A stretch of 64,000 nt of DNA from Acidobacteriaceae bacterium (GTDB taxonomy: Bacteria > Acidobacteriota > Terriglobia > Terriglobales > Acidobacteriaceae): positions 1 to 64,000 of the forward strand of contig JANXZM010000059.1 in NCBI GenBank assembly GCA_025355505.1, given 5' to 3'. Below the pieces are notes generated by a model. The model was not told where the DNA came from and ran no database searches. It saw nothing but the letters and a program-made list of their open reading frames with translations. The position numbers and the translations under genes were made by a program. This document shows positions 27,896 through 38,030 of this stretch, piece after piece; position 1 is the stretch's first letter, and the number at the start of each line of letters is the position of its first letter.

Positions 27896-29011
27896 CTACT
27901 CCCCGCAATACTTCTCATACTGCTGGTAGATAAACGGGTCGGTCATGCCCGCGATGTAGTCGCAGATGACGCGGGGCAAGGGCTCCTGCGCGGCTTTTTC
28001 GCGGTAGTTGCGCGGCAGGTCGTCGGGCTCTTCCATCCAGTGGGCGAAAAGTTCTCCGGTGATGCGCTCGGCGTCTTCTTTCTCCGCGGCGAGTGCTGGG
28101 CTGTAGTAAAGATTTTCGTAGAGGAAGTTTTTCAGCCGGCGACGCTCAGCCTCGACGGGAGGACTGAAGGCAGCGAGTCGCTCGGTATGGCGGCGGACGT
28201 CTTCCAGAGAATGCGGGCCCGCCGCTTGCACACGTCGCGCCGTATTCGTAATCAGGTCTCCTACAAACCCGTCAAAAATACTTTTCAACGCCTCGTTAAA
28301 GACCAGCTTCTCGGCGGCATTCGGGTACCGGCTTCTGGCGTCGTGATAATGGCGTTTGAACAAATCCACGCTGTCGGCGATCTGCTCGACCGTGAGTAAA
28401 CGGGCTTCGTAGCCATCGTCGAGGTCGGCGGTGTTGTAGGCAATCTCGTCGGTCAGGTCGATCAGTTGCGCTTCGAGCGGCGGGCGCTGATCGAGAAAGT
28501 ACTCGGCGAGTTCGGGATGGTCTTTGGCATCGTAATCGTGCGAGTGCTTGATGATGCCCTCGCGGACTTCAAAAGTCAGATTTAATCCGCGGAAAGATGC
28601 GTAGCGAAGTTCGAAATCTTCGACGATGCGGAGCGCGTGCAGGTTGTGATCGAATGAAAGGCCGTGCTGGCGCATGGCGGTGTCGAGCGCCTTTTCTCCG
28701 GAGTGGCCGAACGGAGGATGGCCGAGGTCGTGCACCAGGGCGAGCGCCTCCACCAGATCGGTGTTCAGTCCAAGTTGCGCGGCGATGGTGCGCGAAATCT
28801 GCGCCACCTCAATGGTGTGCGTCAGCCGGTTGCGGAAGTGGTCGGAGTAACGGCGGGTGAACACCTGCGTCTTCGCTTCCAGGCGGCGAAAGGCGCGCGC
28901 ATGGACCACACGATCGCGGTCGCGCTGAAAATCGTTGCGGTAAGGATGCGGCGGCTCGGGATGGCGGCGTCCGCGGGAGTTTTCTACGCGCACCGCGTAG
29001 TCGGCGAGCAT
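27896..29011 (-). CDS. dgt: Deoxyguanosinetriphosphate triphosphohydrolase-like protein (HD domain)
   Basis: NDFQRDRDRVVHARAFRRLEAKTQVF; LTHTIEVAQISRTIA; ALVHDLGHPPFGHSGEKAL. Confidence 0.93.
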   Translation of the reverse strand: MLADYAVRVENSRGRRHPEPPHPYRNDFQRDRDRVVHARAFRRLEAKTQVFTRRYSDHFRNRLTHTIEVAQISRTIAAQLGLNTDLVEALALVHDLGHPPFGHSGEKALDTAMRQHGLSFDHNLHALRIVEDFELRYASFRGLNLTFEVREGIIKHSHDYDAKDHPELAEYFLDQRPPLEAQLIDLTDEIAYNTADLDDGYEARLLTVEQIADSVDLFKRHYHDARSRYPNAAEKLVFNEALKSIFDGFVGDLITNTARRVQAAGPHSLEDVRRHTERLAAFSPPVEAERRRLKNFLYENLYYSPALAAEKEDAERITGELFAHWMEEPDDLPRNYREKAAQEPLPRVICDYIAGMTDPFIYQQYEKYCGE

Positions 29012-29020
29012 GAGGAAAGT

Positions 29021-29587
29021 CTACTTCATCTCGCGCAACTGCTGCAGAACTTCCGCAGCCTTGGGAATCTCCGGAATCGTGGCGGAAACCTTGCGCCAGC
29101 GCTCGCGCCCGTTCTCGTCAATCACAAAGGTCGTGCGCAGGGCGATATCGGCGTCACCCTTGCCGTGAGGATGGAGCAGCCCGTACTGACGAATGACACG
29201 CGCATCGGGATCGCTGAGAATGACGAACTTATGGCCAGCTTGCTTGTCCCAGACGAGGTGGGCATGTTCCTGGTCATCGACGCTGATGGCTACCAGGCGC
29301 GTTTTGGCTTGTTCGAATTCCGTAACGTGCTGCGCGAACTCGCGCAGTTGGCGCATGCAGAAAGGTCACCAGTAGCCACGATAGAACACCAGCACAACGC
29401 GCGATCCGCGCAGGCTGGAGAACGTGAAAGGCTTGCCATCCTGATCGTTCAGCGTGAAGTCCTGGGCAGGCTGCAAGTCGGCAAATGACGACTGGGGCTT
29501 TGGCAGGATCATCTTCGAGGCCACGACAGCCGCAGCCAGTAGTAAGAGAAACACGGCAGTCAGGAAAATTTTGCGGCGGCGCGACAT
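29021..29587 (-). CDS. Candidate selenocysteine-containing AhpC/TSA (peroxiredoxin-like) protein, UxxC motif; in-frame TGA at 29366-29368
   Basis: ORFs 29366..29701 and 29021..29356 are in the same frame, separated only by TGA-CCT-TTC-TGC. Joined protein: MSRRRKIFLTAVFLLLL...QDFTLNDQDGKPFTFSSLRGSRVVLVFYRGYW-U-PFCMRQLREF...TTFVIDENGRERWRKVS. Start at 29587 directly after the upstream TPR gene stop. Confidence 0.78.
29330..29347 (-). promoter_or_regulatory. Candidate bacterial SECIS apical hairpin downstream of the in-frame UGA
   Basis: Minus strand CUGCGCG-AGUU-CGCGCAG: 7-bp perfect stem, tetraloop with G at position 2, loop starting 25 nt after the UGA. Confidence 0.55.
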
Positions 29588-29589
29588 GG

Positions 29590-31698
29590 CTACTGTTTCG
29601 CCCCTTCTTCTTTCGCCAGTTTCATCTTCGCGGAATCGAGCTTCTTCTGCACCCGCGCCTGATCTGCCGGATCGACTTCGGCGGCAATGGTGCGGTTCCA
29701 CTCGGTAAGCGCGCGCTCCCAGTTGCTCGCGGCCAGCTTGAGGCGTCCGGTTTTCTGATACAGATCGCCGAGGTGGTCGTGAACGGTGGGATCGGTATTG
29801 ATTTTCTGCGAAGCCTTCAGCAGATTCTCTTCCGCCAATTCATACTTCCCCATGCGGAAGTAGGCCCAGCCGATGGAATCGAGATAGGCGCCGTTGGCGG
29901 GATCGAGATCCACGGCGCGCTTGATGTATCCGAGCGCTTCTTCGAGCTTCGTGTTCTGATCGGCCAGCATGTAGCCTAAATAATTCAGCGTCGAAGCATG
30001 CTCCGGATCGCTGGCCAGCACCTTTTTAAACTGTTCTTCCGCTTCGGCGTAGCGCTTCGCCCGCTCAAAAGTGGAGCCGCGTAGAAACCATACATACTCC
30101 TTGTCGTCCGTCTTGCTCGCTAGCTGCTCGGCCTTGTCGAGCGCCTGCTCGGCATCGCTGAACCGGCGAAGCCGCGTGTTCATCTGCGCCAAGGTAATGT
30201 AAATCTGGCGATCGTCGGAGTTGGCGTCGCCCTTCAACATCGCGCGGACGTCTTTGAGCGCCTTGTCCGCGTCGCCCATGTCGGCCTGCTGCGCCGCCAG
30301 CACCATTTTCAGGTCGCGGCTGCTGGGCAGCTTCTGCACCGCTTCTTTGGCGGCTTCGGTCGCCTTCTGCCAATCCTTGGCTTCGCGCCAGGTATCGATG
30401 ATCTGCTGATAGCCGCGCTCGATGTTCTCATCGCCGCCCAGGGCGACGATCTCGCGGAAAATCTCGTTGGCCGCCGGATTGTTCCCCTGCTCGCGGTAGA
30501 TCGTGCCTAGCCTCTCGAGAAACACCGCGCGATTGCTCCGCTCACCGTTCGAGTACTTGCCTTCCGGCTTCTCCGATTTCTTCAAGAGGTCGCGCATGAT
30601 TGGAATGGCTTCGTCGTAACGCCCCTGCGCCTGGTAGATGGCGGCAATGTTGTAGGGAACTTCGACCGAGTCCTGCACCATGGATTCGGCTTTTTTCAGG
30701 TTCTCGAGCGCAAGATCGAACTTGCCCTGCTTGCGATAAATTTCCGCGATGCGAACATAGGTTTGCGCATCTTCAGGATTCGCATCCGCGATCACTTTGT
30801 ATTGTTCGAGCGCGGCATCGACCTGGCCATCGTTCAGCAGGTTCTGCGCGAGGCCGCGAATGGCGTCCAGATTGTCGCGATCCTGTTCAATCGCGTGCCG
30901 ATACGCCTCGACCGCGTTCTTATATTGCTTTTGCTGCTCGTAGGTATAACCGAGCGCCGAATAGAGCTTGGCCGAGCGCTGCGTGTTCGGTACCGAACTG
31001 AGCACCTGAGCGGCGCGAGCCGTGTCGCCCAGCTCGTTGTAGAGATAGGCCAGAGTGGTGACCGCCTCTTCGGAATCCGGTTGGAGCTTCACTGCCGTCT
31101 TGAATTCGTTCTCCGCTTTTTGCAGATCGTTGTTCAAGCGATACAGGCGTCCGAGAAGCAGGTGGTCGTCCATGCTGTCAGGTTGCAGCCGGACGATCTG
31201 CTCATACTGCTCGATCGCCAGCTTCAGCACGCTCTGCGAACCGCTGCCGGCTTGCATGTCGCCGAGCGAACGCAGATATATCCTTCCGAGCAAGCGGCGG
31301 GCTTCCAGATTGTTGGGACTGCGCTTGATGATGTCCTGCGCTTCGACGACGGCGTCGCGAATGCGCCCGGTCTTGGCATAGAGTTCGGCGAGGCCGGAGG
31401 TCAGGTACGCGGAGGCCGGGTCGGCATCAATGGCGGCGCGGTATTCCTCAATGGCTTTATTGGCCAATTCGCTGCGGCCGTATGTGGCCACTTGTTCCTC
31501 GTACATGTGCGCCAGGGCGAAGTGGTAGTAGGCGGCGGCGCGGTCCGGCGTCTTGCCCTTGGTGGCGGCCTCGGCGCCGCCGGCAGCCGGGGAATCCGCG
31601 GCGCGAGCGGGCTGGTTCTGCGCCAGTAAAAAAGACCCGGTAAGAACGACACTGAAAATCCAAAACTGTTTTTTCATGAAAGATCCTGCACCCTGCAA
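29590..31698 (-). CDS. Multi-TPR repeat protein, secreted
   Basis: Signal MKKQFWIFSVVLTGSFLLAQ; many TPR units (AIEEYRAAIDADPASAYLTSGLAELYAKTGR). Confidence 0.85.
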   Translation of the reverse strand: MQGAGSFMKKQFWIFSVVLTGSFLLAQNQPARAADSPAAGGAEAATKGKTPDRAAAYYHFALAHMYEEQVATYGRSELANKAIEEYRAAIDADPASAYLTSGLAELYAKTGRIRDAVVEAQDIIKRSPNNLEARRLLGRIYLRSLGDMQAGSGSQSVLKLAIEQYEQIVRLQPDSMDDHLLLGRLYRLNNDLQKAENEFKTAVKLQPDSEEAVTTLAYLYNELGDTARAAQVLSSVPNTQRSAKLYSALGYTYEQQKQYKNAVEAYRHAIEQDRDNLDAIRGLAQNLLNDGQVDAALEQYKVIADANPEDAQTYVRIAEIYRKQGKFDLALENLKKAESMVQDSVEVPYNIAAIYQAQGRYDEAIPIMRDLLKKSEKPEGKYSNGERSNRAVFLERLGTIYREQGNNPAANEIFREIVALGGDENIERGYQQIIDTWREAKDWQKATEAAKEAVQKLPSSRDLKMVLAAQQADMGDADKALKDVRAMLKGDANSDDRQIYITLAQMNTRLRRFSDAEQALDKAEQLASKTDDKEYVWFLRGSTFERAKRYAEAEEQFKKVLASDPEHASTLNYLGYMLADQNTKLEEALGYIKRAVDLDPANGAYLDSIGWAYFRMGKYELAEENLLKASQKINTDPTVHDHLGDLYQKTGRLKLAASNWERALTEWNRTIAAEVDPADQARVQKKLDSAKMKLAKEEGAKQ

Positions 31699-37568: not shown

Positions 37569-38030
37569 ATGGAAGTTAATGATAAATCCCCAGACTTCAG
37601 TACGACGGACGAGAACGGCAAAGAGGTTGCCTTAAAAGATTTTCGGGGCAAGACCGTGGTGCTTTATTTCTATCCCAAGGCCGACACGCCGGGGTGCACC
37701 AAGGAAGCGTGCGGTTTTCGCGATAGCTATGCAGCAATCAAGAAGACGGGCGTGGTGCTGCTTGGGATTTCAAGGGACACAGCGGCCTCGCAGAAAAAGT
37801 TTCAGGACAAGTTCAGTTTGCCGTTCCCGCTGCTGGCCGATGCGGAGAAGAAGATTGCGAACCTGTTCGGCGTGGTCAAAGAGAAAAATATGTACGGCAA
37901 GAAAGTGAAAGGGATCGCGCGGACGACTTTCGTCATTGGCCCCGACGGTAAGATCCAGCACATCTTCAATAACGTGAAGGCGGAAGGGCACGCGGAAGAA
38001 GTGCTGGCGTACCTGAAGGGTGCGGCCTGA
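37569..38030 (+). CDS. bcp: Peroxiredoxin, BCP/PrxQ type
   Basis: VNDKSPDFSTTDENGKEVALKDFRGKTVVLYFYPKADTPGCTKEACGFRD. Confidence 0.93.
   Translation: MEVNDKSPDFSTTDENGKEVALKDFRGKTVVLYFYPKADTPGCTKEACGFRDSYAAIKKTGVVLLGISRDTAASQKKFQDKFSLPFPLLADAEKKIANLFGVVKEKNMYGKKVKGIARTTFVIGPDGKIQHIFNNVKAEGHAEEVLAYLKGAA

Follow-up and report, generated by a model that had tools for sequence, protein, structure and literature searches.

In 2005, peroxiredoxin-like (Prx-like) proteins with selenocysteine (Sec) in a UxxC motif were described from the Sargasso Sea (PMC1088965); they also appear in Table 1 of a 2026 review (PMC13188914). Prx-like thiol:disulfide oxidoreductase selenoproteins are described under PF00578 with UxxC or UxxU motifs (PMC1088965, PMC1794560, PMC13188914 Table 1), and the same table holds a Redoxin family protein (PF08534, UxxC) with one accession (HEU0032618.1). 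For Acidobacteria, a survey of 2006 counted three selenoprotein families and four selenoproteins (PMC1794560).

The locus described here lies in a stretch of 64,000 nucleotides of an Acidobacteriaceae genome (GCA_025355505.1, contig JANXZM010000059.1), referred to below as the window. Its product resembles the Prx-like UxxC kind (representative WP_010940744.1) in domain and motif, with an AhpC/TSA domain, Sec as the first residue of a UxxC that replaces TxxU, a SECIS after the UGA and Cys homologs; it differs in that its clade is acidobacterial, signal-anchored and partly syntenic with TPR and dgt genes. The Redoxin family protein is likewise comparable by domain and motif. The best NCBIfam match of the window protein was the SelL-related redox protein model (SelL_rel_redox, NF040769; E=8e-15), at 54.8 bits versus a curated cut-off of 120, and none of the NCBIfam models reached its cut-off for this protein. 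SelL proper carries UxxU, whereas the window protein has UxxC. Canonical Sec peroxiredoxins (PF00578, TxxU) share the Prx fold but have Sec at the peroxidatic position, three residues later than in the window protein. Anchored thiol:disulfide oxidoreductases of the ResA/TlpA type have in common with it the N-terminal anchor, the thioredoxin-like fold and the CxxC logic, although the window protein is closest to BCP/AhpE peroxiredoxin folds and scores below the ResA cut-off. An earlier note, made from the letters of the window, had remarked that UxxC thioredoxin-fold selenoproteins are known in bacteria and had left it undecided whether this lineage was described. The former part stands, as the Prx-like UxxC kind is published; for the acidobacterial clade no describing paper was found in the open-access literature searched. 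Thus, the kind is already known and the window protein is a branch unnamed by NCBIfam models.

We consider positions 29021-29587 to represent, with a probability of about 0.96, an intact selenoprotein gene, the internal UGA of which is predicted to encode selenocysteine. Two minus-strand ORFs (29701-29366 and 29356-29021) share one frame, with TGA CCT TTC TGC between them, exactly as the earlier note had placed them. Read with TGA as Sec, they give a protein of 188 aa from ATG 29587 to TAG 29021 with U74 and C77 as its sole redox residues, the single in-frame TGA (29368-29366) occupying the first CxxC position in FYRGYW-U-PFC. The proposal that read-through yields one complete leader-plus-AhpC/TSA protein was borne out by Pfam matches that run across the TGA, namely AhpC-TSA (PF00578; E=1.3e-32, 112.7 bits versus a cut-off of 26) and Redoxin (PF08534; E=2.6e-26, 92.6 bits, above cut-off); the structural model has an N-terminal helix. 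ATG 29587 is likely the start codon, to judge from the start place in the nearest relatives; a GTG start ('MEPHHC..') was rejected as merely the mechanical beginning of the ORF, since these relatives begin where ATG 29587 lies. The tight same-strand run of TPR, Prx-like and dgt-like genes was also recovered, with 2 nt between the TPR stop (29590) and the Prx-like gene and 9 nt between the latter and the dgt start (29011). Features are collected in Table 1. A mechanical scan returned 36 TGAs in the window that are flanked by open frame on either side and stand in a context loosely resembling a redox motif; two-sided similarity was examined for 29366-29368 alone. A second AhpC/TSA gene, in which an internal stop is absent, is located on the plus strand at 37575-37964.

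Table 1. Features of the Sec Prx-like locus and its neighbours (window coordinates)
Feature	Position	Strand	Basis
Sec Prx-like gene, signal anchor and AhpC/TSA domain (predicted)	29021..29587	-	Frame, Pfam, AlphaFold2 pLDDT 92.3
In-frame TGA, putative Sec74, first UxxC residue	29366..29368	-	TGA in 10/10 orthologs; Cys codon in Cys-type relatives
TGC, Cys77, UxxC partner	29357..29359	-	Invariant across 45-row alignment
bSECIS-type hairpin CUGCGCG-AGUU-CGCGCAG	29330..29347	-	Begins 18 nt past UGA; apical loop contains G
Probable signal anchor, hydrophobic N-terminal helix (residues 3-24, approximate)	29516..29581	-	Model and sequence; topology putative
Upstream TPR-repeat gene	29590..31698	-	Conserved syntenic neighbour
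Downstream dgt-like (dGTPase/HD) gene	27896..29011	-	Conserved syntenic neighbour

The ortholog set comprised the window gene and nine others, obtained from relatives and named GTDB records and 44-85% identical to the window protein. The closest of them (85%) is in PMMJ01000192.1 (Acidobacteriaceae bacterium fen_85), a separately assembled same-genus MAG, and the remaining ones show 44-61% identity. All ten have TGA at the redox column. Across homologs this column holds TGA, TGC/TGT (e.g. FYRGYWCPFC in Cys-type relatives) or a codon for Thr, with few Ser (TxxC/TxxU Prx), and TAA or TAG was found there in none of the homologs examined, which argues that the placement of TGA is not due to chance. 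Matches with TAA/TAG at four loci were set aside as TxxC Prx proteins having Thr in the column and the stop elsewhere in the match. In one homolog (L088:556 onward, VFSRGYYUPKDKRQ) the TGA is present and the partner Cys is missing. Comparison with the same-genus ortholog gave dN/dS of about 0.08 before the TGA (dN 0.054, dS 0.69) and about 0.06 after it (dN 0.059, dS 1.01), and both halves are therefore under purifying selection. The assertions that the TGA sits at the first Cys of CxxC and that the gene is not decaying, as well as the suggested inspection of this column in relatives, thus came out in favour of the earlier note.

The suggested folding of the region past the UGA likewise revealed a 7-bp hairpin with an AGUU loop, its onset 18 nt after the UGA. 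A small apical loop with a G is a feature of bacterial SECIS elements (PMC1088965), from which the hairpin rule of the present analysis was formulated. A hairpin of -5 kcal/mol or below with a G at loop position one or two occurred in 96% of 123 Sec homologs, in 14% of 1227 control windows taken elsewhere in these genes and, at the corresponding place, in one of 22 Cys homologs. The single-sequence folding z-score for the window hairpin was only -1.5, and synonymous shuffles and comparative tests were therefore applied. For the window gene by itself, the synonymous-shuffle p was 0.065. Among the ten orthologs, synonymous identity of like-residue pairs reached 0.91 in hairpin codons versus 0.41 elsewhere, with none of 20000 permutations as high. 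Covariation within this clade was weak, with one pair, the basal one, varying as CG, UG or UA and not above shuffles, because the hairpin is nearly invariant there. In sister clades, cells changed on both sides numbered 29 versus 9.8 in shuffles (AGUUR loop; 0/500) and 11 versus 3.2 (GG loop; 0/500); kinship can inflate such shuffle tests, slid controls nevertheless being far lower. In ortholog L124 the loop is replaced by one containing GGUCU, which we take to be the loop of E. coli fdhF. Rfam at gathering threshold gave no matches over the window, and a general bacterial SECIS model is not expected in Rfam. It should be added that in TxxU Prx homologs (L054, L036, L063, L070 and similar) a conserved hairpin type, CUAUCAGGCUGAUAG, often follows the UGA and would be another SECIS class.

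The genome of the window (4.16 Mb, 119 contigs, 96% complete) was searched for selA, selB, selD and tRNA-Sec, as had been advised, and every one was present: tRNA-Sec with anticodon UCA (69.7 bits), selB (E=1e-115), selA (E=3e-162) and a selD having its own in-frame TGA, KAAGUASK, which fits the UxxK motif given for Sec-SelD (PMC13188914). Three further AhpC/TSA genes with in-frame TGA were found in this genome, two of them TxxU Prx (C8:37580, AFTGGU, and C57:13324, or L277:953-1438, DWTPTU) and the third with RGTWUPNC (C86:73124). Together, four Sec AhpC/TSA genes and Sec-SelD make at least five selenoprotein genes. An integrase-like ORF, recognised by eye, adjoins the tRNA-Sec gene (L001:1501-1597 and 1609-2958), and selC is a possible target of integration. 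In genome G005, two tRNA-Sec matches above cut-off lie on separate contigs (L243, L246).

Against this background, it is very unlikely that a nonsense mutation cut a Cys-type Prx gene, the remainder of which is still undecayed. Loss does occur in the genus, about 20 genomes of which are without the gene; however, a pseudogene would not account for a TGA fixed in ten orthologs (the others 44-85% identical), always in the redox Cys column and never as TAA or TAG, nor for the low dN/dS downstream of it and the constrained hairpin, and tblastn found no Prx remnant between TPR and dgt in the same-genus genomes that are without the gene. Still less likely is another reading of the UGA, as Trp or Cys through suppression or a code change, or translation of the halves as separate proteins. 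Bacteria can read through UGA at a low level, and ATG 29356 could begin a second half, yet a dedicated tRNA-Sec/SelB system is encoded in the genome together with Sec-SelD, relatives carry Cys in this column, which is what Sec would predict, and neither half alone contains both active-site residues. That the TGA stems from an error of sequencing or assembly in a single MAG has a negligible probability: the assembly is indeed in 119 contigs, but PMMJ01000192.1, of the same genus, and MAGs from other studies have the same TGA and hairpin. The preferred reading accordingly remains the intact selenoprotein gene, the function of which is less certain. AlphaFold2 with the 45-row alignment (pLDDT 92.3) gave a Prx fold with an N-terminal helix (3-24) and U74 directly preceding helix 75-86, and the best Foldseek matches in PDB include BCP and AhpE; the modelled fold is that of a BCP/AhpE-type Prx. 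Alignment with AhpE pairs Cys77 with the peroxidatic Cys and Sec74 with the motif Thr, hence the canonical PxxxT(S)xxC is absent, RGYWUPFC having neither Pro nor Thr. That the selenoprotein acts chiefly as a hydroperoxide reductase, i.e. a true peroxidase, and not as a disulfide oxidoreductase, is a tentative alternative, in line with the fold and its best matches and with the retention of R151, an Arg that matches the one in 'RGTF' of AhpE; the missing motif speaks against it, and UxxC, the N-terminus resembling that of ResA and the match to NCBIfam ResA (3e-14, below cut-off) suit thiol:disulfide exchange.

For the selenoprotein gene, we propose that SelB with Sec-tRNA(Sec) would bind the hairpin immediately downstream of the UGA and that, given the parts present, selenocysteine would be inserted at position 74. 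The N-terminal signal anchor would hold the domain outside the inner membrane, so that a cell-envelope location is probable. The only redox pair would be Sec74-xx-Cys77, located where a helix starts, with a catalytic cycle through a Sec74-Cys77 selenenylsulfide (Se-S bond) that may be re-reduced by a thioredoxin-like donor. Moderate confidence attaches both to the envelope location and to the enzymatic role, whether as a Prx-like thiol:disulfide oxidoreductase or as a hydroperoxide reductase.

In a phylum sample of 396 genomes, selA was present in 252, and among the matches listed at least 66 genomes had a TGA-bearing one. selA was found in 62 of these 66, and the remaining four had tRNA-Sec over the Rfam cut-off; co-occurrence of the TGA form with selA alone was significant among the matches listed (Fisher p=1e-9). 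The own clade formed ten rows, all Sec, in a 163-row tree (support 100/99) that required at least four Sec/Cys label changes, with few columns for the number of rows and weak deep branches. The TPR-Prx-dgt order was observed in four of nine orthologs, three of them from genera other than that of the window. In most same-genus genomes TPR and dgt lie 38-246 nt apart with the Prx-like gene absent, which makes it dispensable. Since the gene occupies this site in other genera as well, it was probably lost cleanly, perhaps more than once, with gain as a less likely alternative. One ORF (L029:543-2007) combines a metallo-beta-lactamase-like domain, assigned by eye, with a Sec Prx-like domain (DFYEGFWUPYCMME).

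It seems rather probable that Acidobacteriota and some other soil phyla harbour a large, scarcely catalogued radiation of UxxC Sec AhpC/TSA proteins, with sister clades having their own hairpin types at the same place (AGUU, AGUUR, GGU/GGC, GGGC and GGUCU loops) and several Sec/Cys interchanges, in which the window clade would form one branch, anchored in the envelope and lost several times from a constant site between TPR and dgt. If Sec recoding is ignored, the gene would be annotated as two ORFs or a pseudogene, and NCBIfam models offer no rescue. Of greater interest than the single protein is how large the acidobacterial Sec-Prx set is, and its hairpins, which differ in type but share their place within one protein family, constitute a natural series for probing SelB recognition. 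Selenium use by soil acidobacteria looks underestimated.
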